Source of the DNA: a virus
Reading direction: 5' to 3' (one strand)
Length of the DNA: 64,000 bases
IMG/VR virus record: IMGVR_UViG_3300025849_002481
Coordinates: 1-64,000 of that record
Of the stretch, positions 6,795 through 60,479 are shown in pieces. The notes below the pieces were generated by a model. It had not been told where the DNA came from and made no database searches. It worked only from the letters and a program-made list of their open reading frames with translations. The translations under genes and the position numbers were made by a program. The first letter of the stretch is position 1, and every line of letters begins with the position of its first letter.

Positions 6795-6802
6795 TATAAA
6801 TA
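6795..6802 (+). promoter_or_regulatory. T4-type late promoter TATAAATA
   Basis: Exact T4 late promoter octamer in the short gap after a terminator, 31 bases before the ATG of the GT9-like gene, which also has a GAGGA ribosome site. It would start a late transcript covering the GT9-like, carbamoyltransferase and oxygenase genes. Confidence 0.75.
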
Positions 6803-6833: not shown

Positions 6834-7754
6834 ATGAAAAAAGCATTTTATATTAATGGCGGCGCCGGCAGGGTATTATGTGCTATCCCTGCATTAGAAC
6901 ATCATATTAAACATATCGATCCAACTGTAATAATTATTGTAGAAGGTTGGCTAGAAATATGTTTATTAAACAAAGCAATAATGCATAATGTATATCCACA
7001 TGATCATCCAGATTTAATAGAAAAATTAAGAGATAGAGAAGTTATTAGCCCTGAACCTTATAGACTAAATGCATACTTTAATCAAAAATGTAACCTTGTT
7101 CAAGCATTTGATATGTTGATTAATTATGATGTTCCACCAACAGATATTCCAGAAGTTAAAGAATATAATATGTTTATTAGTAAGGCTGATGCAATAGTAG
7201 CACAAAATTTAATTAGTGAAGTAAAAGCACATACAAAGAAAGAAAAATTTGTAGTATTCCAACCTTTCGGCTCAACAGCAAAGGCAGAAGGTCAATATAT
7301 AATAGATGAAAGTGGAAGATCATTTGAAACTGAAGATATTTTTCAAATAGTTGAAGAACTAAACAAAGACTATGGTGTTATTATTATGGGAGAAATTAAA
7401 ATTCCTAATTTGCCAAAAGGAGTTATTGTTCCAGAAGAAATATCATTATTACAGTGGACAGCAATTATACATGCATCAGATTATTTTATAGGTTGTGATA
7501 GTGTAGGTCAACATATTGCACACGCACTTGAAAAGCCCGGCACTGTTGTAATTGGTAGCACCTATCCAGAAAATACATCTTACACTAGCAATTCTACAAT
7601 AGAAATTATCGATAATGGCAAAGATAGGAAAATGTATTCTCCGATTCGAATGACATACGATATTAGAATTGAAAAAAATAACGAGTACCTAATGAAACTT
7701 GATGAAAATACCATTAAAGGTATTGTAAAAACTGTTAAGAAAAAATTATCTTAA
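6834..7754 (+). CDS. GT9-family (heptosyltransferase-like) glycosyltransferase
   Basis: A 306-residue protein. The C-terminal half has the GT9 signature of ADP-heptose:LPS heptosyltransferases: FQPFGS at about residue 144, then FIGCDSVGQHIAHALEKPG near residues 225-245 followed by VIGSTYPEN. This matches the family pattern (D-S/T-G..H.AAAL..P...LFG..P). The N-terminal GAGR segment fits the first GT-B Rossmann domain. It is predicted to transfer a heptose or related sugar in the cytoplasm. It starts at ATG 6834 behind a late promoter and sits beside a carbamoyltransferase, facing the minus-strand ADP-heptose operon that could supply its donor. Sugar specificity is inferred. Confidence 0.7.
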   Translation: MKKAFYINGGAGRVLCAIPALEHHIKHIDPTVIIIVEGWLEICLLNKAIMHNVYPHDHPDLIEKLRDREVISPEPYRLNAYFNQKCNLVQAFDMLINYDVPPTDIPEVKEYNMFISKADAIVAQNLISEVKAHTKKEKFVVFQPFGSTAKAEGQYIIDESGRSFETEDIFQIVEELNKDYGVIIMGEIKIPNLPKGVIVPEEISLLQWTAIIHASDYFIGCDSVGQHIAHALEKPGTVVIGSTYPENTSYTSNSTIEIIDNGKDRKMYSPIRMTYDIRIEKNNEYLMKLDENTIKGIVKTVKKKLS

Positions 7755-7763
7755 GGATTATAT

Positions 7764-9584
7764 ATGTCAAAAAAAACAGGATACATAGCAGGAATTGCAA
7801 GAGGTCATAATGCTGGAGTTTGTCTTCTCAAAGACGGTGAAATTGTTTTTAGTATTGAAGAAGAAAGACTTACTAGAGCAAAGTATGACGGGACACCATT
7901 TGCAAGTATAATTAAAATATTAGACTACACTGATAAAATAGATTATTTGGTTATATCTCATACACATGCAGACGAGAATGTTACAGACTATACAGCAGAA
8001 GATCCTTACACTTCTTTAGCTAGGAAAATAGGATTAATAGAAGGAGGACACCCTTCTAAAAATCATCCACAAGTAGTTGAGTATTGGGAGCAACATCACA
8101 GAAGTCATGCAGCTTGTTCATTTTATAGGAGCGGTTTTGAAACAGCAAATATTATAATTGTTGACGGAGCAGGTACATATGCCACACGGCACGATGGTCA
8201 AACAATGTGGGAAGTTGAAAGCATATATCACGCATCTTATCCAAATAACTTTAACGAAGTATATAAACACTTTGGAGGTAATGGACCTTGGCCAACTGAA
8301 CATTATAACGAAGGCGTCGAAGTTTTAGTTGACGACAAAGCTGGCATAGTTAAAGCATATGAAGCTGTAACGCAATTTTGTGGATGGCATTCAATCGAGG
8401 CTGGCAAAACTATGGGATTATTTCCGTATGGATCTCCTAACCAAGCACCAAAAATATATGACGAAGTTAGTGCAAATAGAAATGTTATAATGCCTACATA
8501 TCCAAATGGAGCAAAAGTTAATGATGCATTATACCCTGAACTACTTGACAGAGTACAAGATCCTAAAGAACTTTGGTCAAATTTAAATGAAGATAGCAGT
8601 GAAGAAGAAATAAACAAAGTTGAACAATTACTTGCATCTGAAGATTTAACGCTATTAAATTCAAGAAGAAATATGGCATACAATGTACAAACAGAATCTC
8701 AACAACTAGTACTTGATTTAATTTTAAAGTCAATTGAAAAGACTGGAAATAAAAACATTGTAGTAAGCGGCGGATATGGATTAAATTGTGTAGCAAACTA
8801 CTTTTACTTAAAGCACTTACCAGCAGATGTTAAATTATATGTTGAACCAATTTCAACTGATGCAGGCACAGCAATAGGATCTGCATTATATCATTATCAT
8901 AAAATTACACAAGATAATAAAGTTAGACCTAAAAATGAAAACCTATATCTTGGACCTATTCAGAACATCACTAAAGATGAAATTATAGAATGTGCAAATA
9001 GATATAATGGTATTGTAGAACATAATGTTGATTATAAGAGTGTTATTAACACTATACGTGAAAAAAATATTGTAGCATTATATCAAGAACGTTGTGAAAA
9101 CGGTCCTAGAGCATTAGGTAATAGAAGTTTAATGTTTGATGCTACTGTACCTGATGGTAAAGACTTTGTTAATTTAATTAAAAAACGAGAATATTTTAGA
9201 CCGTTTGCTGCATCAGTATTACAAGAAGATGTACATGATTGGTTTGATCTAAGAGGTATGGAAGACTCTCCTAGTATGATGTATGCTGTAAACTGTCAAC
9301 CAGGAGTTCAAGAAAAGATACCTGCAGTTATTCATGTTGACGGTACTTGTAGAATACAAACTGTTACTAAAGAACAGAATGAACATTGGTATAATTTAAT
9401 TAACGAATTTAAATCACAAACCGGAGTACCTGCATTATTTAATACCAGTTTTAATTTAGGAGGCGAACCGTTAGTTGAAACTATTGATGATGCAATGCGT
9501 ACACTATACAACTCAGGAATTAATTATATATATTTTCCTACAACACAAACATTAGTAAAGATAGAACATAATGCTAGAGCCTAA
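7764..9584 (+). CDS. Carbamoyltransferase, NodU/CmcH/TobZ family (copy 1)
   Basis: A 606-residue, full-length member of the family that transfers carbamoyl from carbamoyl phosphate, via carbamoyl-adenylate, to a hydroxyl, often on a sugar. Visible are the N-terminal IARGHNAGVCLL start of the ASKHA-like fold, HHRSHAACSF at residues 111-120 (metal-binding His pair), VVDGAG near 133, VSGGYGLNC near 334 and the C-terminal ENGPRALGNRS and REYFRPFAASV motifs of the carbamoyl phosphate binding domain. It follows the GT9-like gene by 9 bases and overlaps a 2OG oxygenase by 14. A second, shorter copy lies at 59007-60479. The acceptor is unknown. Confidence 0.9.
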   Translation: MSKKTGYIAGIARGHNAGVCLLKDGEIVFSIEEERLTRAKYDGTPFASIIKILDYTDKIDYLVISHTHADENVTDYTAEDPYTSLARKIGLIEGGHPSKNHPQVVEYWEQHHRSHAACSFYRSGFETANIIIVDGAGTYATRHDGQTMWEVESIYHASYPNNFNEVYKHFGGNGPWPTEHYNEGVEVLVDDKAGIVKAYEAVTQFCGWHSIEAGKTMGLFPYGSPNQAPKIYDEVSANRNVIMPTYPNGAKVNDALYPELLDRVQDPKELWSNLNEDSSEEEINKVEQLLASEDLTLLNSRRNMAYNVQTESQQLVLDLILKSIEKTGNKNIVVSGGYGLNCVANYFYLKHLPADVKLYVEPISTDAGTAIGSALYHYHKITQDNKVRPKNENLYLGPIQNITKDEIIECANRYNGIVEHNVDYKSVINTIREKNIVALYQERCENGPRALGNRSLMFDATVPDGKDFVNLIKKREYFRPFAASVLQEDVHDWFDLRGMEDSPSMMYAVNCQPGVQEKIPAVIHVDGTCRIQTVTKEQNEHWYNLINEFKSQTGVPALFNTSFNLGGEPLVETIDDAMRTLYNSGINYIYFPTTQTLVKIEHNARA

Positions 9585-10203
9585 ATTAGAAGGGCAAATA
9601 TTACCTTTATTTGCTACACCTTTATACACACATAAACTAGAACACACCGAATTAGAACATGCACAATACGATGTTCGAACTGTGGTTAAAAAATTATATG
9701 ACGAAGATAGATGGGGACAGAATCAACGATGGAGTTCAGGAACACATCAATTATCTAATAAAGGAAATTTTGAAGATTGCATAATAACTTCAGAAAAAAT
9801 GTCAAACATCAAACGTTCTATTATGCACCATGCTGGTAATTATATGTCACATATGAATGTTAGACCTGATTATAAAAGTGCAATTTCGTCGTCTTGGTTA
9901 ACATTAACTAATACCGGTCTACATGCACACATACACGATCACGGAACTTCTCATATTAGTGGAGTATATTGGTATAAAACAAACGGAAATGACGGCAATA
10001 TAGTTTTTCGAAATGCGTTAAAAGCATTAAAATGTAATCCAATTGGAGCATCATTTGCACATGAAAATGAATTTGTTCCTGAAGAAGGAAGAATAGTTAT
10101 GTGGCCTAGTTTCTTAGATCATTCTGTTAATGAAAACAAAACTGATAATGACCGTATTAGTTTATCGTTTAATATAATATTAGAAACAGGTATTACTACT
10201 TAG
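9571..10203 (+). CDS. 2-oxoglutarate/Fe(II) oxygenase-like protein
   Basis: A 210-residue protein fitting the phage 2OG-Fe(II) oxygenase group (Pfam 2OG-FeII_Oxy_5 type): LPLFATPLY at the start, a metal-site segment HAHIHDHGTSHISGVYW at about residues 118-134, and MWPSFLDHSVNENK with RISLSFN near the C-terminus (distal His and the Arg that binds 2-oxoglutarate). It would hydroxylate a protein or sugar substrate using O2. It overlaps the carbamoyltransferase gene and converges with gmhB by 8 bases. Two other 2OG-type genes occur at 50535 and 54711. The substrate is unknown. Confidence 0.75.
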   Translation: MLEPKLEGQILPLFATPLYTHKLEHTELEHAQYDVRTVVKKLYDEDRWGQNQRWSSGTHQLSNKGNFEDCIITSEKMSNIKRSIMHHAGNYMSHMNVRPDYKSAISSSWLTLTNTGLHAHIHDHGTSHISGVYWYKTNGNDGNIVFRNALKALKCNPIGASFAHENEFVPEEGRIVMWPSFLDHSVNENKTDNDRISLSFNIILETGITT

Positions 10204-10846
10204 ATTCGATCCAATTAGCAAAAGATAAAAGATCATCAAATATAATAGTCTTTTTCTTTATCTTTTGATTAGTAAATTTATTAAGTTCTTTAATAGTTTG
10301 TTCGCCGTAACCTGTGCGCACTAGTACAGGTCTTGCACCCATTTTAAATGCTGCTTTAAGATCAGATATTTTATCACCAACATAATATCCTTGTTTAAAT
10401 TTAATATGCTTAACTTCGTTCTCACATCTTTTAAACATACCAGTATTGGGCTTTGCATACATGTCGCTACGCATACTACTTTCACTATAAAATAATGCAT
10501 CAATACTAGGACATCCTGATTGAGCTAACAAATCAAACATATGGTTGTGTACAGCTTCGACATCTTGTGAAGTATATAAACCTTTTGAAATACCACCTTG
10601 ATTTGTAATTATAACAATCTTATGTCCTAAATAACGGAGTTTTGTAATAGCATGTAGACTACCTTCAATAGGTTCAAAGTCTTGTGGACGGTATGTATAA
10701 GTTCCGCGATCTACATTTATTACTCCGTCCCGATCTAAACCAATAACACATTTTGGTGCAATGTTAACATTGTCATACAACGGAACTGTTTTTGTTTCTT
10801 CTACAGGCTCGTGGCTATCAGTCCATTTAATTTTATAATCACTCAT
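10196..10846 (-). CDS. gmhB: D-glycero-D-manno-heptose-1,7-bisphosphate phosphatase-like HAD protein
   Basis: Read on the minus strand from ATG 10846, whose ATGAGTGA overlaps the stop of the cupin gene; a longer frame exists but lies within that gene. The HAD motifs are clear: GLDRDGVIN (nucleophile and acid Asp), VIITNQGGISKG, and YVGDKISDLKAA, in the HisB-N/GmhB arrangement. GmhB removes the 7-phosphate before HldE adds AMP to heptose-1-phosphate. The zinc-loop cysteines of the bacterial enzyme are not seen; the loop reads KPNTGMF without CxH or CxC. Location in an hldE-hldD operon supports the role. A related sugar-phosphate phosphatase is possible. Confidence 0.8.
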   Translation of the reverse strand: MSDYKIKWTDSHEPVEETKTVPLYDNVNIAPKCVIGLDRDGVINVDRGTYTYRPQDFEPIEGSLHAITKLRYLGHKIVIITNQGGISKGLYTSQDVEAVHNHMFDLLAQSGCPSIDALFYSESSMRSDMYAKPNTGMFKRCENEVKHIKFKQGYYVGDKISDLKAAFKMGARPVLVRTGYGEQTIKELNKFTNQKIKKKTIIFDDLLSFANWIESK

Positions 10847-11234
10847 TGGACGGTACTTGACTATCTCCAGGACCAATTCGATAATTGTCTTCAACACTAT
10901 CTGGAGTACTTACTTCAGTAATACTAGATTCATCAGTAGTAGCTACTAATTGATGTGGCATTAATGGAGGGTTGTGCCATACATCGCCTTCTTTAAGTTC
11001 TTTTTCATATAACATTGAGTCCTTAGTATCAATGTATCGAACTTTAAAGGTGCCACTATTGACAAACCATGTTTCGTCTTTTTCTTTGTGGAAGTGCATA
11101 CTTGTTTTATTTCCGGCTTTATTAAAAAACATAATTTTACCACAATAGTCATCTGTTGTGGCCCAAATGAGTTCGTATCCCCATCCTTTTTGTACCGCTC
11201 CACTTAGTCGAGTAGGTGTAGTTTTATCTTCCAT
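10839..11234 (-). CDS. Cupin-domain protein (sugar-phosphate isomerase-like)
   Basis: A 131-residue single cupin: GWGYELIW, MHFHKEKDETWFV and GDVWHNPPLMPHQL carry the two cupin metal motifs. It is closest in style to the C-terminal cupin of mannose-6-phosphate isomerase/GDP-mannose pyrophosphorylase and resembles the cupin fused to a nucleotidyltransferase at 40459. It lies between hldD (11-base overlap) and gmhB (8-base overlap). No GmhA is visible in the window, so a heptose-phosphate isomerisation or epimerisation role is tempting but only an inference. Confidence 0.7.
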   Translation of the reverse strand: MEDKTTPTRLSGAVQKGWGYELIWATTDDYCGKIMFFNKAGNKTSMHFHKEKDETWFVNSGTFKVRYIDTKDSMLYEKELKEGDVWHNPPLMPHQLVATTDESSITEVSTPDSVEDNYRIGPGDSQVPSNE

Positions 11235-12030
11235 TTATAAATTCCTCCGGGGTTGTAAAGTTAATGTTTAGTACACTACTTAATTTTTTTATGTCTGCAC
11301 AAGTGTATTCTTGATATTGATCTTTAAGTTCTTTAGGCATAGGTATATATTCAATTTTAGCTTTAAATCTTTTAGCTACTAGATCTGCAATAGTTTGAAA
11401 ACTAGTAGCAACACCTGTACCAATGTTAAATATTCCAGACTCTTTTGATGTTAGCATGTACCGATGTATATTACAACAGTCACCTACATATATAAAATCT
11501 CGTTTGTATAGTTCACTATTTTCAAATAACTTAATTGTACCAGACTTTGCTTGCTTAAAAAACTTAGTTATAGGACTTGCTTGGTCACCTTTATGATCTT
11601 CCATAGCGCCATAAACATTAAAGTATCTAAATCCTTGAACAATAATATTTTGTTTTTGTTGCATTACCCAACGATCAAATAAGTACTTACTTGTTGCATA
11701 ATAACTTTGCGGTTGTTTAGGTGCATCTTCATTAAAATCTAAATTGCAACCATACACACTAGCACTACTAGCATACTGTAAATTTACACCATTAGTATTA
11801 CATTGATTAAATAACCATTTTGAAAATTCATAATTTTGTAACATTACTTTATCTACATCACGTTCAGTAGTTGAACTAATTGCACCAAGATGTATTACCC
11901 AGTCGTATCCAGAAACATCTGGTAATGAATTAAGGTTCCATTCGTAACCAAATAACTCGTTGTCTTTGTCAAGAAACGGAGCTAAATTTTTACCAATAAA
12001 TCCTTCATGTCCTGTTATTAATATTTTCAT
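11224..12030 (-). CDS. hldD: ADP-L-glycero-D-manno-heptose 6-epimerase
   Basis: A 268-residue short-chain dehydrogenase-type epimerase (E. coli enzyme about 310). TGHEGFIGKN is the NAD(P)-binding GxxGxxG; YASSASVYG and YYATSK give the catalytic Ser and YxxxK. Further identity to HldD: SSTTE after the third strand, GFRYFNVYG with HKG..AS, LFE.SE..KRDFIYVGD, SGIFNIGTG, and IEYIPMP..LK..YQ. HldD converts ADP-D,D-heptose to ADP-L,D-heptose, the donor for LPS inner core. ATG 12030 lies inside the end of hldE (26-base overlap), indicating translational coupling. Confidence 0.9.
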   Translation of the reverse strand: MKILITGHEGFIGKNLAPFLDKDNELFGYEWNLNSLPDVSGYDWVIHLGAISSTTERDVDKVMLQNYEFSKWLFNQCNTNGVNLQYASSASVYGCNLDFNEDAPKQPQSYYATSKYLFDRWVMQQKQNIIVQGFRYFNVYGAMEDHKGDQASPITKFFKQAKSGTIKLFENSELYKRDFIYVGDCCNIHRYMLTSKESGIFNIGTGVATSFQTIADLVAKRFKAKIEYIPMPKELKDQYQEYTCADIKKLSSVLNINFTTPEEFINGR

Positions 12031-13168
12031 TATTCGCTTCTATAATATCAGTTGTGCTATGACCTTCAACTGTAGGTATAATATGTACTGGTGCTAAGTC
12101 GTGTCCTACAATTTCAGGTACAGTATAATCGCCACCTTTAACAATAAGATCAGGTTTTAATGACTGTATCAATTCATATGGAGTGTCTTCTTCAAAAATA
12201 ATAACTTCGTCAACATATGGTATAAGTTCTAATTGCTCTTGACGCACATTAACATCGTTAATGGGTCTAGTTTTACCTTTTAAGCGTGACACGCTGGCAT
12301 CGCTGTTAAGCCCTACAATAAGTCTATCACCTAGTGTACGGGCTTCTTTAAGCAACGTAAGGTGTCCTTTATGTAGTATATCAAAACATCCGTTAGTAAA
12401 GATTATTTTCTTATTTAGATCTCTTTCTGTAAGTAAGTACGTACCTGAATGCTTAACAGATTCAGTTGATCCTCTAACAGCAATTTCTAGACAACGCTGA
12501 TAATCATATCCTTTAGTAAGTGCATATACAAATCCTGCTATGAAACAATCACCTGCTCCTGTAACATCTGATACTTCTACAGTATCTACAGGAATATTAA
12601 ATTTTTGATTATCTATTACAGCAACTACATCATTGCCAGCATTAGTTGTAATAATATTACCAAGCCATCTATTAAAATTAAATTGACCAAACTCACTATT
12701 ATTAGGTTTTACTAACCACGCACCTTTAAAGTCGTCGGCTTGTCGTTTTGGATCTACTATAATCTTACATTTGGATGTATTGTTAATGTGATCAATTATT
12801 TGATTTGCTACATTCATCATACCTTTATTATAATCACTTAGTATAGCATAATCATACTGAGTGAAGTCGGTATCTTTTATTAAGCCAATTATGTCTTCGC
12901 CTTCTATAAACTTATCATCGTCAACTCTTGTAACATAATGACCGTCACACATAATACGAGTTTTTATACTTTTAGCATGAGGATATTCGAGTAGATCTAC
13001 TTTAACATTTAAATTAGCAAGGTTATTATAAACTAGTCCTGCGCCACCATATGTTTCTACAACGCTTTCTTGATTAACTACAGGCACTGGTGCTTCAGGA
13101 CTTAGTCGAGTTGAAGTCCCATATATGTATTTGTCAATTATTATGTCGCCTATAACTATAATTTTCAT
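12005..13168 (-). CDS. hldE: Bifunctional heptose-7-phosphate kinase / heptose-1-phosphate adenylyltransferase
   Basis: A 387-residue HldE. The N-terminal PfkB-type kinase has RLSPEAPVPVV, a glycine-rich GGAG and DVTGAGDCFIAGF (GAGD catalytic Asp). From about residue 250 comes the nucleotidyltransferase, FTNGCFDILHKGH (HxGH), GLNSDASVSRLKG, FEEDTP and LIVKGGDY. Both match E. coli HldE in order, with a shortened kinase domain (E. coli 477 residues). I chose ATG 13168: the upstream ATG at 13183 lies within the -10 box. A sigma-70 promoter at 13175-13203 puts the expected transcription start on this ATG. First gene of the minus-strand hldE-hldD-cupin-gmhB operon. Confidence 0.92.
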   Translation of the reverse strand: MKIIVIGDIIIDKYIYGTSTRLSPEAPVPVVNQESVVETYGGAGLVYNNLANLNVKVDLLEYPHAKSIKTRIMCDGHYVTRVDDDKFIEGEDIIGLIKDTDFTQYDYAILSDYNKGMMNVANQIIDHINNTSKCKIIVDPKRQADDFKGAWLVKPNNSEFGQFNFNRWLGNIITTNAGNDVVAVIDNQKFNIPVDTVEVSDVTGAGDCFIAGFVYALTKGYDYQRCLEIAVRGSTESVKHSGTYLLTERDLNKKIIFTNGCFDILHKGHLTLLKEARTLGDRLIVGLNSDASVSRLKGKTRPINDVNVRQEQLELIPYVDEVIIFEEDTPYELIQSLKPDLIVKGGDYTVPEIVGHDLAPVHIIPTVEGHSTTDIIEANNENINNRT

Positions 13169-13174
13169 ATTACT

Positions 13175-13203
13175 ATTATACACTAAAACTCTATATTAGT
13201 CAA
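13175..13203 (-). promoter_or_regulatory. Sigma-70 promoter for hldE operon
   Basis: On the minus strand TTGACT (13203-13198), 17-bp spacer, TATAAT (13180-13175), then six bases and the hldE ATG. The -35 lies in the last codons of the Nudix gene. The geometry predicts a leaderless hldE mRNA and early expression. Confidence 0.75.
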
Positions 13204-13630
13204 GCAAATTAATAACTTCAAATACAGTTTCTAGTTTTTTTAAATTAACTTTCTTGTTTAGTGTGTTTTGTAATCCGTAGTGTAAAGGCTTTGGCCATTT
13301 GCTAAAACTACACCATGCATAACCGTCATGTTCTTTGTTTAATTGCGGAAGGAATTCTTTATCTACTAAGCATAGATATGTATGGAATTTAAATTTTGTA
13401 TCATTAGATACAAATGTTTCTAATGGAATAGTTTTCTTTATGTTAACTTCACCAATCTCTTCGGATATTTCTCTACTAAGACCTTCCCAAGGAGTTTCAG
13501 CACCTTCATTTGTGCCACCAACAAGACCCCATACGGCATTACTACGTTTTCCGTTTGATCGATGTAAAAATAAAAATCTTTGGGTACTTAAACTATAGAA
13601 TAACGCACCACTGCACACAATATTGTTCAT
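13196..13630 (-). CDS. Nudix hydrolase
   Basis: A 144-residue protein with a complete Nudix box, GX5EX7REX2EEXGX, seen as GGTNEGAE...SREISEEIGE at residues about 46-68, which binds divalent metal to hydrolyse nucleoside diphosphates linked to another group. VWGLVGG just before the box is typical. Start ATG 13630 is preferred over the upstream in-frame ATG at 13687, which lies within the gp15 gene; 13630 has a late-promoter-like TGTAAATA five bases upstream. Substrate unknown; nucleotide sugars are plausible given the neighbouring ADP-heptose operon. Confidence 0.85.
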   Translation of the reverse strand: MNNIVCSGALFYSLSTQRFLFLHRSNGKRSNAVWGLVGGTNEGAETPWEGLSREISEEIGEVNIKKTIPLETFVSNDTKFKFHTYLCLVDKEFLPQLNKEHDGYAWCSFSKWPKPLHYGLQNTLNKKVNLKKLETVFEVINLLD

Positions 13631-17250: not shown

Positions 17251-17469
17251 ATGTGTAGTCCATTTGTACGTAAAGAAGCTAACCGACTAAACTGGTTGAT
17301 CAAAGGTAAACTAATTGACAGATCCTGGAGTGATGAATCAGTTGAACAAATCTACGACTCATATTTTAAAAGACTTTGGGGTAATAACGAGAGAATGGAA
17401 TACGGCGCCATAGGGTTTGAAGCCGCATACAAAGCTCGTGAAGCTGAAATATTATCTGAAAAAGGTTGA
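17251..17469 (+). CDS. Small hypothetical protein
   Basis: A 72-residue polar protein with several W, R and K residues (LNWLIKGKLIDRSW, YFKRLWGN), ATG start and a strong AAGGAGG ribosome site 8 bases upstream. No recognised domain, membrane segment or signal peptide. Its ribosome site lies in a potential hairpin, and its stop overlaps the -35 box of the promoter for the next gene. It sits between gp13 and a nucleotide-kinase-like gene. Function unknown. Confidence 0.65.
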   Translation: MCSPFVRKEANRLNWLIKGKLIDRSWSDESVEQIYDSYFKRLWGNNERMEYGAIGFEAAYKAREAEILSEKG

Positions 17470-17494
17470 CAACACTTACAAACTAAGCTATAAT
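17466..17494 (+). promoter_or_regulatory. Consensus sigma-70 promoter
   Basis: TTGACA (17466-17471), 17-bp spacer, TATAAT (17489-17494): perfect consensus, 26 bases before the GTG of the P-loop kinase-like gene, which has an AAGAGGAG ribosome site. Confidence 0.85.
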
Positions 17495-37754: not shown

Positions 37755-38428
37755 TAAAAAGTTTTATCATACGACTAGAAGAAAATGAACATTCAAGTCA
37801 AATGGCAGAAGAGTGTTTATTACAGGCTGTTAAACACGGCCTTCGTCCATCATATTACAAAGCAATAAACGGCAACGACTTCCAACATCACTATAATACA
37901 ACAAAGATAAAAAAACAAGGAAAATTTAAAAAAGGTCGACTAGGTGTCATTGGTTGTTTCTTTAGTCATTATTATCTATGGCAGACTTGTGTACAATTAA
38001 ATGAACCTATTATTATTTTAGAACATGACGGCTATTTAATTAGACCAATCGACGATACAATATTAAATCAATTTGATGATGTATTAAAACTAGATAGACT
38101 AGATCCATATAGTAAAAATTACGAATTTGACTTAGAAGACGAAAAACATTTAGATATTACAGTCGAACCGTATACTAATGATCCTACAAAGGTATTAAAG
38201 CAAGGACTTAAAGATTATTTTAAAGGCGCATATTCTTATATAATAAAACCACATGCCGCTATAAAACTTATACGATATATTCAGGTTAATGGTCACAGAC
38301 CAGCTGATCAACAAATTAATGCAACTATAGTTAAACTTCAAACAACAGTGCCTACAGTTGCTAGATTGCATCCTTATTATGCCATCGGTAATAATATAGA
38401 TACAGCGAGCCTCACGAGAAACTTATGA
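37751..38428 (+). CDS. Glycosyltransferase family 25-like protein
   Basis: A 225-residue protein starting at TTG 37751 (TTGA overlap with uvsY stop, GGAGG site 10 bases upstream). GVIGCFFSHYYLWQ and IIILEHDGYLI match the GT25/LPS-beta-1,4-galactosyltransferase pattern (GC..SH...W, then ilEDD; here EHD), and FKGAYSYIIKPHAAIKLI is the typical C-terminal part. It is the first gene of the second glycan island and is coupled to the next by ATGA. Donor and acceptor are unknown. Confidence 0.75.
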   Translation: MIKSFIIRLEENEHSSQMAEECLLQAVKHGLRPSYYKAINGNDFQHHYNTTKIKKQGKFKKGRLGVIGCFFSHYYLWQTCVQLNEPIIILEHDGYLIRPIDDTILNQFDDVLKLDRLDPYSKNYEFDLEDEKHLDITVEPYTNDPTKVLKQGLKDYFKGAYSYIIKPHAAIKLIRYIQVNGHRPADQQINATIVKLQTTVPTVARLHPYYAIGNNIDTASLTRNL

Positions 38429-39351
38429 TAATAACCGGGTTTAAACAAATTGTAAAAAATAAAATAGAACAATTTGAATCCGGAGTTAGACGACATCGTG
38501 ATAGTTATTTCTCTACAAAATATAATCTAAATAAAAATTATAATACAGATTGTTTTGTACAGTTTAATATTTACAATCCTTATCTTACTTACAATAGACA
38601 AGATAAAGTTGATGCTTACAAATATGTATTAAGTACCAATCTTCCGTTTCTTGTATGCGAAGAAGGTGCTATGCGACAGCTACCAACTTATAAAAGATGG
38701 GGCTGGACTAGTTATAAAAATGGTATTGGTAAATTTAATAATACTAATGTAGACGATAGTCGTTGGTTAAAAATACAAAAAGAAAATAATCTTAACTTTA
38801 TTGATTGGCACAGTCCTGGTGATAACATTTTAATAATGGGACAATTAGAAGGCGATAGTGCATTAATAGAAATGTATGATGCTGGTTATAAATCTTTTGA
38901 CGATTATATTATAGAACAAATAAAACAAATACGCAAACATACTGAACGTCCTATAGTTGTTCGACTACATCCTCTTGGTAGTAAAGCATTATACGAAAAA
39001 GAAGAATATTTAAATAGTACATATAAAAATGTTAGTATGAGTAAAAATTATAATTCTACAACAACACTTAATGGCGGCCTAGGATTAAAAGAAGATTTTG
39101 ATAACGCATATTGCGTAGTCACATATAGTAGTAACAGTTGTGTAGAAGCCATTGAACAAGGTATACCTGTGTTTACATTAAGTAGCACTTCTTCAGCATA
39201 TGACATTGGTCATAAATGTTTTTCACAGATTGAAAATCTTGATTATAATATACAAATAAATACTTGGTGCAATAAGATTGCGTATACTATATGGAATAAT
39301 GAAGAAATCGCTAACGGCGACATGTGGGAACATTTAAGGATAACAAAATGA
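38425..39351 (+). CDS. GT-B-like glycan protein, paralog family A (member 1)
   Basis: A 308-residue protein sharing a C-terminal module with three neighbours (41219, 42910, 45249): IRKHTERPIVVRLHP around residue 170-185, then D.AYCVVTYSSNSCVEAIEQGIPVF, and SQIENL.....W near the end. The pattern RP(I/V)..R.HP plus S(N/S)....I..G.P.F is like capsule/teichoic-type GT-B transferases (KpsC/KpsS style). The N-terminus is distinct. It is ATGA-coupled on both sides. Function as a glycosyltransferase is inferred from fold pattern. Confidence 0.55.
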   Translation: MIITGFKQIVKNKIEQFESGVRRHRDSYFSTKYNLNKNYNTDCFVQFNIYNPYLTYNRQDKVDAYKYVLSTNLPFLVCEEGAMRQLPTYKRWGWTSYKNGIGKFNNTNVDDSRWLKIQKENNLNFIDWHSPGDNILIMGQLEGDSALIEMYDAGYKSFDDYIIEQIKQIRKHTERPIVVRLHPLGSKALYEKEEYLNSTYKNVSMSKNYNSTTTLNGGLGLKEDFDNAYCVVTYSSNSCVEAIEQGIPVFTLSSTSSAYDIGHKCFSQIENLDYNIQINTWCNKIAYTIWNNEEIANGDMWEHLRITK

Positions 39352-39890
39352 CATTACCAAATCACCTAGGCGGGCATATGGGCATCACACATGTTGATCG
39401 TGGCATATTACAATACTTCAAATCTAAAGGATGTCAAACTTATCTAGACATTGGATGCGGCCCAGGAGGTATGCTTGATGAAGCATATAATCTTGGTTAT
39501 TATATTCAAGGTATTGACGGCGACAACACTATTAAAAGAAATTTACCAAACAATGTTGTTATACATGACTTCACTACTGGTCCATACGAATTTCCTTTAA
39601 CATATGACTTAGTTTGGAGTTGCGAGTTTGTTGAACATGTAGAAGAAAAGTTTTTGGATAACTTTATGCGAGTATTCCAAAAAGGCAAAACAGTATGTAT
39701 GACATATGCTCCAGTAGGAAAAAAAGGACATCATCATGTTAATTGTAATACTAAAGAATATTGGATTGATACATTTACACAATATGGATTTGTTTTTAAT
39801 GAAAAACTTACACAGGAAGTAAAACGTCATAGTTCAATGGAGCGTGAGTTTTTTAGAGAATATGGATTAGTGTTTGAATGCGAGCGTTAA
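39348..39890 (+). CDS. SAM-dependent methyltransferase (class I)
   Basis: A 180-residue protein from ATG 39348 (ATGA overlap). TYLDIGCGPGGMLDEA near residue 32 is motif I for S-adenosylmethionine, IQGIDGD follows as the acidic strand 2, and YDLVWSCEFVEHVEE is motif IV of the Methyltransf_11/23 type. It probably methylates a sugar or related small molecule in the glycan island; DNA or protein targets are not excluded. It overlaps the next gene by 13 bases. Confidence 0.8.
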   Translation: MTLPNHLGGHMGITHVDRGILQYFKSKGCQTYLDIGCGPGGMLDEAYNLGYYIQGIDGDNTIKRNLPNNVVIHDFTTGPYEFPLTYDLVWSCEFVEHVEEKFLDNFMRVFQKGKTVCMTYAPVGKKGHHHVNCNTKEYWIDTFTQYGFVFNEKLTQEVKRHSSMEREFFREYGLVFECER

Positions 39891-49677: not shown

Positions 49678-50286
49678 ATGTTTAAAAACATCGATAAAAA
49701 GATGATGCTAAAACTTGCACTATTGCACGTTGTAGTAATCACAATCAGTAACGCACTAGTTGCGATTCCAGTAGAAATTGCTGGGTATAAGTTGACCTGG
49801 GCAGCGTTTACGTTCCCATTGGTTATTCTAGCAACTGACTTAACAGTTAGAATGTTAGGTAAGAATATTGCTCGAGCAACCATTGCCGCAGCATATCCAA
49901 TTGCAATTATTACAAGTATTGCAGTAGTACTAGCAGAAGGTGCACCAGAGAGTGTAGCAATGCGTATTGGATTTGCAAGTGCAACAGCATATGCTGTGGG
50001 TACGTTTATTGACGTATATGTGTTCCAAGCAATTAGAGAGCGTATGAATGTATGGTGGTTAGCACCTGCATTGTCAACAATCGTTGCAAACGTAATTGAC
50101 AGTTACACGTTCTTTGCAGTTGCATTCAACAACAGCGCCGATGAGTATATGGCCGCTAACTGGGTTGAAATTGCAGGTTCACAAGCCGTACTAAAAATTG
50201 TAGTAGGATTAATTATCTTCCTACCAGCATACGGGTTATTACTACGTTACATCAAAGGACGTACAAATGACACAGAAACGGGGTAA
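49678..50286 (+). CDS. yhhQ: Queuosine precursor transporter, YhhQ family
   Basis: A 202-residue inner-membrane protein with about six hydrophobic spans. It aligns well with E. coli YhhQ: VVITISNALVAIPVEI, LTWAAFTFPLVILATDLTVR followed by MLGKNIAR, WWLAPALSTIVANVIDSYTFF, and FLPAYGLLLRYIK. YhhQ imports the 7-deazaguanine precursors preQ0/preQ1 used for queuosine in tRNA and, in some phages, for 7-deazaguanine DNA modification. It is in a replication-gene region. No Tgt/DpdA-like or preQ0-synthesis gene is seen in the window. Confidence 0.88.
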   Translation: MFKNIDKKMMLKLALLHVVVITISNALVAIPVEIAGYKLTWAAFTFPLVILATDLTVRMLGKNIARATIAAAYPIAIITSIAVVLAEGAPESVAMRIGFASATAYAVGTFIDVYVFQAIRERMNVWWLAPALSTIVANVIDSYTFFAVAFNNSADEYMAANWVEIAGSQAVLKIVVGLIIFLPAYGLLLRYIKGRTNDTETG

Positions 50287-50551: not shown

Positions 50552-51152
50552 AGGCTATCCTGTAAGCATTAATAAATTACAAGAAGACGATTTAAAAAAA
50601 TTACAAGATCATTATTTGCCTTTGATATTAAACAATGAAGACGATAGCTGTGAAGGATCATCGTCTAGTATTTCTAAGAATGCATCACAAAGATGGGGAG
50701 ACGCAGAGTTTTTTAACTTGTTAAATGAAACTATTTTACCAGGACCTTATATACAATCTTACTTAGATGCTTACATGTTTAGCTTTCCATATGAAGTTTT
50801 TATAGACTCTTGGTACAATGTTCATTATAAACACGATCATCAGCAATTGCATAATCATATAACAACAAATGTTCCTGCTTTTTCATGTGTAGTTGTTTTA
50901 AAACAACCAAATCCTGATGCAGGGCAATTTGTATTTAGGACACCAAACTTATCAAATCATTTAAAATACCTAGAATTAGATCCAGTAGATCAATATCCAA
51001 ATGTATATAAACCTCATATGGAAGATGGTTTAATAATTATATTTCCTTCTTGTCTAGAACATTATGTATATTATAATAGGACCGATGAAGCAAGAGTTGT
51101 ATTTGCTTCAAACATTAGATTAGAAAGAGAGAGATCAAAATGCGAATTATAG
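50535..51152 (+). CDS. 2-oxoglutarate/Fe(II) oxygenase-like protein
   Basis: A 205-residue protein. DSWYNVHYKHDHQQLHNHI at about residues 92-110 gives the first metal-binding His cluster; AFSCVVVLKQPNPDAGQFVF is the core strand pair; IIIFPSCLEHYVYYN holds the distal His and DEARVVFASNI the Arg. This is the 2OG-FeII_Oxy_5-like layout also seen at 9571. It overlaps its neighbours on both sides and lies just upstream of kdsA. Substrate unknown. Confidence 0.7.
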   Translation: MIRQIEGYPVSINKLQEDDLKKLQDHYLPLILNNEDDSCEGSSSSISKNASQRWGDAEFFNLLNETILPGPYIQSYLDAYMFSFPYEVFIDSWYNVHYKHDHQQLHNHITTNVPAFSCVVVLKQPNPDAGQFVFRTPNLSNHLKYLELDPVDQYPNVYKPHMEDGLIIIFPSCLEHYVYYNRTDEARVVFASNIRLERERSKCEL

Positions 51153-51913
51153 CAGGACCATGTCAACACGAGTCATACAGCCAAAGTTTAGAAATTGCTA
51201 AAGAGTGCAAACGTGTATGTGACAAGTATGATATTGAATACGTATTTAAAGCAAGTTACGATAAAGCCAACCGTTCAAGTATGCAAGGCAAACGTGGCCT
51301 GGGCATGGAAGCTACACTCACAGACTTTTTAGCATTAAAAGTAGAACTAGGCGTAAAGACACTAACTGATGTACACGACTATGTACAGATTGCACGTATC
51401 GAAAGAGAGTTTAAGGATGCAGTTGACGTCTATCAGATTCCTGCATTTTTATGTAGACAGACTGACTTGATCCAAGCAGCTTGTGCTACAGACAAAATAG
51501 TAAATATAAAGAAGGGACAGTTTATGGCACCTTGGGATATGAAAGGTGTGCTAAGTAAATGTGAAGGCGCTAAAGACGTCTGGATAACTGAAAGGGGAAC
51601 AAGTTTTGGCTACAACACTCTTGTCGTTGACTATACTGGTCTTATGTATATGCTCGACAATTATGAACATGATATTGTTTTTGATTGTACACACTCTGCC
51701 CAAAAACCCGGCGGACAAGGTACTAGTTCAGGTGGTAATAGGGATTACGTGCCTGGGTTGGCTCGTAGTGGGTCTGCTCTTGGGATCCGGAACTTTTTCT
51801 TGGAAGTCCATCCTGACCCTGATGTAGCACCAAGTGATGGTCCTAACATGCTTAAACTAGAAGACTTTGAAAGGACTGTAGATGACATCCACCGCTATTC
51901 TTATACCAGCTAG
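51140..51913 (+). CDS. kdsA: 3-deoxy-D-manno-octulosonate-8-phosphate synthase
   Basis: A 257-residue KdsA (bacterial about 280). Clear family signatures: IIAGPCQHES, FKASYDKANRSSMQGKRGLG, TLTDVHDYVQ, QIPAFLCRQTDLIQAA, VNIKKGQFMAPWDM, ITERGTSFGYNTLVVDY, DCTHSAQKPGG and FLEVHPDPDVAPSDGPN. It condenses arabinose-5-phosphate with phosphoenolpyruvate to Kdo-8-phosphate, the first step to CMP-Kdo of the LPS inner core. The start overlaps the oxygenase gene by 13 bases, and it overlaps kdsB by 32. Confidence 0.93.
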   Translation: MRIIAGPCQHESYSQSLEIAKECKRVCDKYDIEYVFKASYDKANRSSMQGKRGLGMEATLTDFLALKVELGVKTLTDVHDYVQIARIEREFKDAVDVYQIPAFLCRQTDLIQAACATDKIVNIKKGQFMAPWDMKGVLSKCEGAKDVWITERGTSFGYNTLVVDYTGLMYMLDNYEHDIVFDCTHSAQKPGGQGTSSGGNRDYVPGLARSGSALGIRNFFLEVHPDPDVAPSDGPNMLKLEDFERTVDDIHRYSYTS

Positions 51914-52586
51914 ATATAACAGCACACGCTTCCCTGGAAAGCCGTTGGCTATGTTGGACAACGTTCCTATGATAAAACGTGTGTATGACGCTTGTATTGC
52001 GTTTAAACTACCAACATACGTGCTTACTGATGACATGCGTATCTTTAATTTGTTTGGTCCTAGAGCATGTTGGATTGATCAAGAGCAAGAATACAACAAC
52101 GGTACAGAACGATGTGCAGGCGCTGTTGCTAATGATATGTTTACAAAGTATTGCGGCCATTATGATCAGTTCATTAATGTACAAGGTGATATGCCCGATG
52201 TAACAATGGAGATGATCGAGAAATGTATTGAACAGTTATCATACAATTCATCAGTAAGTACAGTATACACAGATATGCCCAAAGAGATGCAAGACGATCC
52301 AAACTCTGTTAAAATGATAAGTGCATACCCAAGTAAAGCATTATGGTTTGGCAGAGGACTTACTGGCTATGGTGAATGGCACTTAGGTGTGTATGGATAC
52401 AAGCGTCACGCACTATTAGCCTACCCTAGTTTAAAAGTTACCCAAGAAGAAACTATTGAGCAACTCGAACAACTACGCTGGTTAAAAAGTGGTTGGCAAA
52501 TAGGATGTAGTAGTGTATACTATAATGGAGTAGAGATAAATTCACCCGAGGACGTAGATACATGGCACAACAAAAACTTCCAATAA
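51882..52586 (+). CDS. kdsB: CMP-Kdo synthetase
   Basis: A 234-residue cytidylyltransferase. It begins TAILIPARYNSTRFPGKPLA, the KdsB/NeuA nucleotide loop, then MIKRVYDAC, NGTERCA (compare SGTxR), DQFINVQGDMP with the metal-binding Asp, and HLGVYGYKRHALL. KdsB activates Kdo with CTP for transfer to lipid A. ATG 51882 lies in the end of kdsA with AAAGGA upstream. KdsC and KdsD are not seen, so the pathway would borrow host steps. It overlaps gp62 by 25 bases. Confidence 0.9.
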   Translation: MTSTAILIPARYNSTRFPGKPLAMLDNVPMIKRVYDACIAFKLPTYVLTDDMRIFNLFGPRACWIDQEQEYNNGTERCAGAVANDMFTKYCGHYDQFINVQGDMPDVTMEMIEKCIEQLSYNSSVSTVYTDMPKEMQDDPNSVKMISAYPSKALWFGRGLTGYGEWHLGVYGYKRHALLAYPSLKVTQEETIEQLEQLRWLKSGWQIGCSSVYYNGVEINSPEDVDTWHNKNFQ

Positions 52587-58158: not shown

Positions 58159-59010
58159 ATGACAACATTACATACGTTCGGTTGTAGTATTACACAAGGA
58201 CATGCACTTCCAGATGTAGTTAAACCTCCACTCACAGCAGAAGAAGAAGTTGCATTAGGTAGAGAGTCACATTGGGCAGATGAACATATACTTAAACCCA
58301 GTAACTATGCTTGGCCTAAATTACTAGGCGATAAACTTAATTTGCCTGTACAAAATTATGCAAAACGTGGAGCTTGCTTTCAACAAATTGCTCGACAATG
58401 TGCTGTGTCAGCTCAAAACATTAAACCTGATGACATTGTAATAGTAATGTGGACATACTTTAGTAGGCTTACTTTACAGTGGCCAGCTAGAACAGCCGTT
58501 CCGCTTACACATATACCAGCACCAGAAAACAATTTCCTAACACGTATATTGCCAGGCTTTAATAAATTCTTTGGTCTTAGTCAACTAAAAGAACCTGATC
58601 CTTTTGACGAAACTGAAGGGAAGATTTATAACTACATACAGTCGTCTATAAATTATACATTTGATCCGTTGGTTATGTATGATCGATTCCATAACAATTT
58701 AGTTTTACAAACAATGACAGACGGTCACCTTAGATCTACTGGTGCAAAGATTATACATTTAAGTGTAGAATATCAACCATATATAGATCAACTTGAAGGT
58801 GCAAGACAAGCTCTTGATACATCATTACAGTCACCATATGAAATACCAGATCCAAATGATTGGTATTCTTTATCAGTAGATCATGATAGCTGTCGAATAA
58901 TTCATGATCCTAGTATACCGTTAACAGGTGAAAACGGACATCCTAATGTTCAACATCATATTAACTATGCTAACCATATCTATGAAAAACATTTTGGAGG
59001 AGGAGTATGA
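58159..59010 (+). CDS. SGNH/GDSL hydrolase-like protein
   Basis: A 283-residue protein. HTFGCSITQGHALPD at residues 5-19 is the block I nucleophile motif (G.S.T.G), NYAKRGACFQQIA matches the block II Gly region, DIVIVMWTYFSRL resembles block III, and NGHPNVQHHINYANHI carries the terminal His. Such enzymes add or remove acyl groups on sugars. No signal peptide is seen, so it acts in the cytoplasm. It is ATGA-coupled to the second carbamoyltransferase, so both may act on the same glycan. Confidence 0.7.
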   Translation: MTTLHTFGCSITQGHALPDVVKPPLTAEEEVALGRESHWADEHILKPSNYAWPKLLGDKLNLPVQNYAKRGACFQQIARQCAVSAQNIKPDDIVIVMWTYFSRLTLQWPARTAVPLTHIPAPENNFLTRILPGFNKFFGLSQLKEPDPFDETEGKIYNYIQSSINYTFDPLVMYDRFHNNLVLQTMTDGHLRSTGAKIIHLSVEYQPYIDQLEGARQALDTSLQSPYEIPDPNDWYSLSVDHDSCRIIHDPSIPLTGENGHPNVQHHINYANHIYEKHFGGGV

Positions 59011-60479
59011 TCACCTGGGGGATTTCAGCTAACAGTCACGATGCTGCACTAGCAGTGTTTACAGACAACGGACTAGAGTTTGCTAGTCACGCTGAACGTT
59101 TTAGCGGAGTTAAGAATGACCCACATCTCAATAAAGAGATAATTAACTATGCACGTAAATGGGGAGAGCCAGATGAAGTTGTTTGGTACGAAAAGCCTTT
59201 TAGAAAAACTCTTAGACAGCTTCGAGCAGGACAAGGATTCAACTTTAGGGAAAACAATATTAATCGTTATCTTCGACAGTATGGGATATCTGCTCCTATT
59301 CGTACTGTTTCTCATCATCATTCCCATGCTGCTGCCGGTTATTATACTTCCCCTTTTACAGAAGCCACTGTTGTTTGTATTGACAGTATTGGAGAATTTG
59401 AAACTCTTACCATATGGGAAGGAGAAGGAACTAGACTTAAAAAAGTCTATTCACAAGGATACCCCAACTCTATCGGACTTTGGTATTCGGCTCTCACACA
59501 AAGAGTAGGACTAAAACCTAACGAAGATGAATATATACTAATGGGTATGGCCGCTTATGGAGACCCTCAACGTTTATGGAACGACATGTATGAAATGTTT
59601 GATTACATTGACGGACCTGACATTAGATTTAAAGAGAACTTACACCGAGGGTGCAAGCAATGGAAGCCAGAGCTTACTACAGAACAAGATATGTTTGACA
59701 TTGCAGCTGTAACCCAAAAGACATATGAGTTTACCCTAGAGCAAATATTGGCATGGGCCAAGAAGAACACAAAGAGCAATAACCTAGTTCTTATGGGAGG
59801 GTGTGCATTAAACTGTAGTGCTAACCATTTAGCCTATAAGTATTTTGATGACGTATGGATTATGCCAAACCCGGGCGATGCAGGATCAGCAATAGGGTCA
59901 GTATTAGCTCATAAGAAAGAACACATGCCCATGGATCATGCATACCTGGGTTACAACATTGAAGGAGACTACCCAGTTGAAGAAGCAATCAGCGAACTTA
60001 AGAAAACGGGAATCGTGGGCGTTGCGAATGGTCGGGCGGAGTTTGGCCCTAGGGCTTTTGGCAATCGTAGCCTACTTGCTGATCCCAGGGGAAGGGATAT
60101 CAAAAGCAAAGTCAATGACATTAAGAAAAGACAACAGTTCAGACCCTTTGCTCCCGTGGTGCTCGCAGAACACGCAAGCAAAAACTTCAAAGGACACTAT
60201 AATAACTATATGCAGTTTACCTCCAAGTGCAAACATCCATTCCTGTATCCTGCCATCACCCACGTGGACGGCACAAGTAGAGTACAAACTGTTGAAGCAG
60301 ATGGAAGCGGGATTAGAAGATTGTTAGAAGCATGGTATGAGGAAACAGGCTGTCCAATGTTGTTGAACACTTCGCTCAATATCAAGGGCAAGCCCATGGT
60401 AAATAACTTGACAGATGCACAAGAGTTTGCTATAATGTATAATGTAAAAGTATGTACAAAGGCTACAGATGACAACTAG
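59007..60479 (+). CDS. Carbamoyltransferase, NodU/CmcH family (copy 2)
   Basis: A 490-residue member, 116 shorter than copy 1. TWGISANSHDAALAVF begins the fold, SHHHSHAAAGYY (residues 102-113) gives the metal His set, MGGCALNCSAN and NPGDAGSAIG the central motif, and AEFGPRAFGNRSLLADPRG with QQFRPFAPVVL the C-terminal carbamoyl-phosphate domain. Both copies keep all main motifs but differ in length and context, suggesting different acceptors. ATGA-coupled to the SGNH gene. Its last codons contain the gp41 promoter. Confidence 0.9.
   Translation: MITWGISANSHDAALAVFTDNGLEFASHAERFSGVKNDPHLNKEIINYARKWGEPDEVVWYEKPFRKTLRQLRAGQGFNFRENNINRYLRQYGISAPIRTVSHHHSHAAAGYYTSPFTEATVVCIDSIGEFETLTIWEGEGTRLKKVYSQGYPNSIGLWYSALTQRVGLKPNEDEYILMGMAAYGDPQRLWNDMYEMFDYIDGPDIRFKENLHRGCKQWKPELTTEQDMFDIAAVTQKTYEFTLEQILAWAKKNTKSNNLVLMGGCALNCSANHLAYKYFDDVWIMPNPGDAGSAIGSVLAHKKEHMPMDHAYLGYNIEGDYPVEEAISELKKTGIVGVANGRAEFGPRAFGNRSLLADPRGRDIKSKVNDIKKRQQFRPFAPVVLAEHASKNFKGHYNNYMQFTSKCKHPFLYPAITHVDGTSRVQTVEADGSGIRRLLEAWYEETGCPMLLNTSLNIKGKPMVNNLTDAQEFAIMYNVKVCTKATDDN
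60409..60437 (+). promoter_or_regulatory. Consensus sigma-70 promoter for gp41
   Basis: TTGACA (60409-60414), 17-bp spacer, TATAAT (60432-60437): perfect consensus within the carbamoyltransferase gene, 31 bases before the gp41 ATG. Confidence 0.85.

Follow-up and report, generated by a model that had tools for sequence, protein, structure and literature searches.

A heptose operon in a phage genome fragment

The 64,000-nt window analyzed here is part of the linear, 75,720-base IMG/VR virus record IMGVR_UViG_3300025849_002481 and carries, on its minus strand, an operon for the biosynthesis of ADP-heptose, a sugar unit from which bacterial surface structures are built; the operon includes a small cupin, the proposed phosphoheptose isomerase of the pathway. 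The record is probably a fragment of a larger genome. By its tail sheath, this marine phage is closest to jumbo myoviruses (Sinorhizobium phage Phosso, 469 kb; Agrobacterium phage Atu_ph07, 490 kb; Pseudomonas phage PA5oct, 287 kb) and is therefore probably a large myovirus of the T4 superfamily.

Along the minus strand, two virion genes are followed by a NUDIX hydrolase directly upstream of HldE (13196..13630; PF00293, 4e-13), HldE (12005..13168; 387 residues from ATG; PRK11316, 3e-81; TIGR02199, 6e-49; TIGR02198, 2e-45), the ADP-glyceromanno-heptose 6-epimerase HldD (11224..12030; 268 residues; TIGR02197, 5e-71), the cupin (10839..11234; 131 residues; Cupin_2, 6e-9) and a GmhB-like HAD phosphatase, assigned as heptose-1,7-bisphosphate 7-phosphatase (10196..10846; 216 residues from ATG; PRK08942, 2e-40). 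Adjacent genes overlap by 26 nt (HldE/HldD), 11 nt (HldD/cupin) and 8 nt (cupin/GmhB), which makes translational coupling of the four heptose genes plausible. These overlaps and family matches bear out the original prediction, made from the letters of this DNA, of a minus-strand hldE–hldD–cupin–gmhB operon. The NCBIfam scores of HldE, HldD and GmhB all fall under the curated equivalog cut-offs, which is no surprise given how short and diverged the phage proteins are, and the assignments are based on motifs and operon context.

Motifs were compared with Escherichia coli sequences used as yardsticks. HldE is a fusion of a heptose-7-phosphate kinase (approximately residues 1–247) and a heptose-1-phosphate adenylyltransferase (approximately residues 248–387). 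It retains DVTGAGD and FTNGCFDILHKGH, and both halves of a bifunctional kinase/adenylyltransferase are present with active-site motifs; compared to the E. coli enzyme, the kinase half lacks one stretch of about 26 residues and another of about 17. HldD shares with its E. coli counterpart the Y-x3-K motif, which holds the catalytic Tyr and Lys, as well as the HKGxxAS loop. The phosphatase retains the DxD, TNQ, KP and GDK motifs, while the zinc-binding Cys/His loop (CPHH...CDC in E. coli GmhB) is missing from its alignment, hence the name GmhB-like. The adenylyltransferase ends in GHSTT instead of STTR5, the nucleotidyltransferase promiscuity motif according to PMC11573728, and an ADP product is therefore the default guess.

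A conserved sigma-70-type promoter

A sigma-70-type promoter, TTGACT-N17-TATAAT (13175..13203, minus strand), matches 11 of 12 consensus positions and ends 6 nt before the HldE ATG. Promoter-like sites are no more frequent in the region than in shuffles (59 observed compared to 64 expected), so a lone match proves nothing and the case is carried by conservation in relatives. The 80 related loci contain 38 distinct upstream sequences, of which 34 keep the promoter, all with a 17-nt spacer and 30 with an exact TATAAT; the −10 box lies 5–7 nt from the HldE ATG. In the four promoter-less types (L008, L015, L051 and L075), an HldD-like gene reaches or enters the hldE start. The −35 element overlaps the last NUDIX codons, and its conservation may be partly coding. 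The promoter type suggests transcription of the operon by host sigma-70 RNA polymerase. Since +1 would fall at about the HldE ATG, the hldE mRNA is probably leaderless, starting at or within a few nucleotides of that codon. The site had been predicted as an early, sigma-70 promoter; its recurrence upholds the sigma-70 type, while "early" is better replaced by "host sigma-70-type". A perfect sigma-70 consensus, TTGACA-17-TATAAT (12 of 12 positions), is present at 17466-17494 on the plus strand.

Distribution of the cassette in phages

At least 587 HldE relatives were confirmed in a scan of viral contigs. Across relatives whose HldE identity falls as low as 63%, the order of genes, their reading frames and the spacing of the promoter are kept, and the common order in the 80 phage loci retained is gp14, sheath stabilizer, NUDIX, HldE, HldD, cupin and GmhB. 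Gene presence was counted in the 33 phage loci with at least 5.5 kb of downstream sequence. NUDIX, HldD and the cupin are found in all 33, the phosphatase in 25, and the glycosyltransferase family 9 (GT9) and carbamoyltransferase genes in 16; the cupin is thus more constant than the phosphatase (33/33 versus 25/33). The cupin was detected in 35 phage records. Marine myoviruses commonly carry the cassette, and a split version occurs in the cyanophages P-SSM2, S-CAM3, P-TIM68, S-T4 and S-SSM7. Eight contigs assigned to bacterial or archaeal metagenome-assembled genomes (MAGs; L086, L087, L096, L098, L099, L102, L124 and L149) also carry the phage-type cassette and are probably phage contigs binned into MAGs.

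That GmhA is missing had been part of the original prediction, and the SIS-domain search of the record agrees: no SIS_2 match was obtained in its 75.7 kb with a search that, as a control, recovers SIS_2 proteins in many bacteria. SIS_2 is likewise absent from 50 of 50 related records, including five complete cyanophage genomes, and a tblastn search of phages with E. coli GmhA matched 13 records, of which none is a cyanophage. The extra genes between hldE and hldD in some relatives, which were suspected to be gmhA, resemble 2-oxoglutarate (2OG)-Fe(II) oxygenases when read by eye. Four cyanophage proteins annotated as "phosphoheptose isomerase" were also checked (L081, 13113-13457; L083, 12221-12559; L084, 10933-11280; L085, 10097-10432); at about 114 residues, they match EcbF/BcbF HAD phosphatases and not SIS proteins. 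The cupin next to them is annotated as "cysteine dioxygenase". This PHROG label is unsupported by context, and a putative cysteine dioxygenase of Bacillus subtilis is only a mid-rank fold match. A GmhA-like SIS gene with 66% identity to E. coli GmhA is present in a 636-kb uncultured phage (LR756504.1, 430086-430643).

Cupin and GmhA in cellular heptose operons

A genome scan returned 77 cellular loci with cupin relatives, several of which are apparently MAG-binned phage contigs, while others are cellular. In four Woesearchaeota loci (L150, L152, L153 and L156) the cupin is fused to an HldE-type kinase, and in a fifth (L154) it lies between HAD and nucleotidyltransferase domains in one 504-residue protein; the Pfam check of these fusions was made for L153 and L154. 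One Parcubacteria genome carries a GT9-like gene, the cupin, a kinase, a nucleotidyltransferase–HAD fusion and HldD as consecutive genes and has no SIS_2 genes.

Cellular clusters were then gathered by the RfaE nucleotidyltransferase instead of by the isomerase, with a kinase, a HAD phosphatase and a nucleotidyltransferase required. Among 11 Patescibacteria clusters (from 40 loci read by eye), seven have a SIS gene and four have the cupin, with none having both or neither. The 27 clusters of DPANN archaea, counted by script, comprise 17 with SIS, eight with the cupin, none with both and two with neither. Pooled, the 38 clusters contain 24 with a GmhA-type SIS gene, 12 with the cupin, two with neither and none with both (Fisher P = 3e-8, which overstates the significance because the clusters share ancestry). 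Cupin and GmhA are therefore mutually exclusive in this set. On the kinase tree, the isomerase type switches nine times, at least four of these switches being forced by well-supported branches; shuffled labels cluster on the tree just as strongly.

The exchange is also visible within operons that are alike except for the isomerase (L286, L299, L302 and L305 compared to L257, L258, L259 and L261). The arrangement SIS–HldD–kinase–[HAD–nucleotidyltransferase] has the counterpart cupin–HldD–kinase–[HAD–nucleotidyltransferase], and kinase–SIS fusions have kinase–cupin counterparts. A stand-alone GmhA-type SIS_2 gene is absent from most DPANN genomes with a full cupin cassette and from four such Patescibacteria genomes. 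Of 35 further cupin-bearing bacterial genomes, 34 encode a heptose nucleotidyltransferase; most lack a GmhA-like SIS gene and show only GlmS-type partial SIS_2 matches, and a few genomes have weak SIS_2 hits.

Active site of the cupin

The AlphaFold model of the cupin has a mean predicted local distance difference test score (pLDDT) of 93 and displays a cupin fold with an HxH...E...H metal site. Its Pfam matches are confined to Cupin_2, Cupin_1 and Polysacc_synt_C. The cupin in the window does not match PF07385 (Lyx_isomer), while one archaeal cupin fusion matches that family at 1e-3. D-Lyxose isomerases are clearly among the returns of fold and profile searches with the cupin.

Eight residues (K33, H47, H49, K52, E54, H94, E107 and D116) are invariant in 50 cupins. 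Eight sugar- and metal-binding residues have been reported for D-lyxose isomerase (PMC8378251), and all eight align with these invariant positions. The match was made through a lyxose isomerase homolog found with PF07385 (L253) and aligned to the cupin profile. K33, K52, E107 and D116 align with the substrate-binding or catalytic Lys, Lys, Glu and Asp of lyxose isomerase, in a weak alignment in which the Asp spacing is off by two. The phage cupin thus shares with the D-lyxose/D-mannose isomerases (7NZO-7NZQ, 2Y0O and 3KMH) the barrel, the HxH/E/H metal site, a Lys two residues before the metal-binding Glu, a Glu 13 residues beyond the final His, the Asp that follows and the upstream Lys. The phage-type protein is shorter, however (about 130 residues compared to 170–230), with very low sequence identity, and has the additional invariant residues S45, S109, T110 and R119, which could bind phosphate. 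The active-site alignment is supporting evidence for an isomerase role, not proof; the cupin would work like an enzyme of the D-lyxose isomerase type, and, as PF07385 is not matched, we do not file it as a member of that family.

Proposed pathway and alternative explanations

We consider it probable, from gene content and residue conservation, that the cupin replaces GmhA as a phosphoheptose isomerase not homologous to it and that the operon runs from sedoheptulose-7-phosphate to ADP-L,D-heptose. The cupin would act as a metal-dependent aldose–ketose isomerase converting sedoheptulose-7-phosphate to D-glycero-D-manno-heptose-7-phosphate, the C7 counterpart of the interconversion of fructose-6-phosphate and mannose-6-phosphate. 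The HldE kinase would phosphorylate C1 of heptose-7-phosphate, the GmhB-like phosphatase would take off the 7-phosphate, the HldE adenylyltransferase would attach AMP and HldD would epimerize C6 to give ADP-L,D-heptose. Transcription would start at the host-type sigma-70 promoter and probably yield a leaderless mRNA. The product is likely used by a GT9 heptosyltransferase-like enzyme, whose gene lies on the opposite strand and is preceded by a late-type box. An ADP-heptose pathway with a cupin of sugar-isomerase type had been predicted from the sequence alone, and the position of the cupin at the isomerase slot in phages, DPANN and Patescibacteria now supports it well. The broader proposal is quite probable as well: the small cupin would define a new, non-homologous phosphoheptose isomerase family, and GmhA would have given way to it more than once in phages, DPANN and Patescibacteria, and probably in other bacteria (Binataceae and Deltaproteobacteria MAGs), so that the phage pathway would be complete and the host would supply only sedoheptulose-7-phosphate.

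Several observations weigh against this assignment, beside the shared ancestry of the clusters counted above. The record being a fragment, a GmhA gene may lie elsewhere in the phage genome. One genome with a cupin cassette (G441) also has a 200-residue SIS gene on another contig, and 4 of the 34 bacterial genomes with both nucleotidyltransferase and cupin have a strong full-length SIS_2 match. The lyxose isomerase used for the active-site alignment is a distant match (HHalign probability 30%), and generic cupins such as oxalate decarboxylase and quercetinase outscore sugar isomerases in both sequence and fold searches. If heptose-7-phosphate were made by the host GmhA, the phage cupin would be an accessory protein with a sensing, stabilizing or regulating role. 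GmhA is widespread in Gram-negative bacteria, the control search found SIS_2 proteins in many bacteria and phages often lean on host steps; yet host supply leaves unexplained why the cupin takes the place of GmhA in cellular operons, why the two do not co-occur there, why cupin–kinase fusions exist and why the isomerase-like active site of the cupin is invariant. We judge this explanation improbable.

Still less probable is a role after nucleotide activation, in which the cupin would act on an NDP-heptose or keto intermediate as a 3,5-epimerase or ketoisomerase (RmlC/FdtA-like) to yield a modified heptose. Such cupins do occur in sugar–nucleotide clusters, and Foldseek also returns CapF and RmlC-like proteins, but the phage cassette is without a 4,6-dehydratase or reductase, and the cupin sits in the isomerase slot with residues resembling those of lyxose isomerase. 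Packaging filler has been raised as an option for cyanophage lipopolysaccharide (LPS) genes (PMC3037559), and the shortened enzymes, with a kinase lacking about 43 residues and a GmhB lacking its zinc ligands, would suit such non-functional cargo. The retention of catalytic motifs, together with the order, frames and promoter spacing that persist at 63% HldE identity, leaves this idea with hardly any credence.

Relation to known heptose systems

Compared to the bacterial GmhA–HldE–GmhB–HldD pathway, the phage HldE, GmhB and HldD are recognizable homologs with key motifs, whereas SIS-family GmhA is absent, with the cupin at its position, and both the kinase and GmhB are shorter. That phages carry ADP-heptose genes is already known from cyanophages such as P-SSM2. 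The cyanophage cassette (PSSM2_309-313 in P-SSM2; T4-GC 304, 305, 307 and 308, the co-occurrence of which was noted in 2010 (PMC3037559)) shares the nucleotidyltransferase, kinase, HAD, cupin and HldD and, as here, lies near tail-fiber, GT9-like and carbamoyltransferase genes. In cyanophages, however, the nucleotidyltransferase and kinase are separate and the HAD protein is short and EcbF-like, whereas HldE is fused and the HAD protein is GmhB-like in the present operon.

In vitro synthesis of ADP-heptose by viral heptose enzymes has been reported (Tang et al., Science 2024, according to PMC11461863 and PMC11573728). The viruses described there likewise encode heptose nucleotidyltransferases, reported to be functional. 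The phosphatase is stated to be absent in viruses in PMC11461863, a claim that is updated by the GmhB-like phosphatase in 25 of 33 phage loci; a cupin isomerase is not mentioned in either source. No publication that connects the phosphoheptose isomerase step with a cupin was found in the open-licence literature, a search that may miss a subscription paper.

If the assignment is correct, one small protein family, which databases now label "cysteine dioxygenase" or plain "cupin", would explain organisms and phages that have all heptose enzymes except GmhA. A propagated label is also corrected, as the checked cyanophage "phosphoheptose isomerase" proteins are HAD phosphatases. The predicted GmhA-independent isomerase is relevant to efforts to use GmhA as an antibacterial target (PMC11056994).

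Neighboring genes and use of the heptose

The GT9 (heptosyltransferase-fold) glycosyltransferase (6834..7754, plus strand; PF01075, 3e-5) gave a model with pLDDT 87, for which the best Foldseek matches are a GT9 protein (3tov, 8e-8), WaaC (2h1h, 1.5e-7), WaaF (1psw, 3e-7) and TibC (4rap, 5e-7). The model is thus near both LPS heptosyltransferases (WaaC and WaaF) and a protein heptosyltransferase (TibC), and the enzyme is a likely user of ADP-heptose. A T4-type late promoter box, TATAAATA (6795..6802, plus strand), lies 32 nt upstream of the gene; the box occurs three times in the window compared to 11 expected. A heptosyltransferase-like gene opposite the operon under a late promoter had been proposed earlier, and the GT9 assignment and this box agree with it. 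A NodU/CmcH-type carbamoyltransferase (7764..9584, plus strand; PF16861, 2e-55) adjoins the cassette, as it does in several cyanophages, and a 2OG-Fe(II) oxygenase (9571..10203, plus strand; PF13759, 2e-17) converges on GmhB.

Elsewhere in the window, KdsA (3-deoxy-8-phosphooctulonate synthase; 51140-51913, plus strand) scores above its NCBIfam cut-off and is followed by a KdsB-like CMP-Kdo synthetase (51882-52586, plus strand); KdsA relatives were confirmed in 237 viral stretches. Because KdsA and KdsB lie in the same window, a host-envelope or LPS-like glycan is the somewhat favored destination of the heptose. The original prediction held that the phage may supply ADP-heptose as host production declines, or divert it. 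Glycosylation of the virion is a less probable destination, kept in view because the position of the cassette among tail-fiber and neck genes is conserved. KdsA and KdsB (CMP-Kdo), together with the glycosyltransferases, point to a broader glycan or LPS program rather than to signaling, and ADP-heptose signaling finds no support here.

The window also encodes a GT25 glycosyltransferase of an LPS biosynthesis family (37802-38428, plus strand) near a methyltransferase-domain gene (39348-39890), a second, Nol-like carbamoyltransferase (59007-60479, plus strand) and a queuosine-precursor transporter-like (YhhQ) gene (49678-50286, plus strand). A second possible isomerase–nucleotidyltransferase is present in the same phage.

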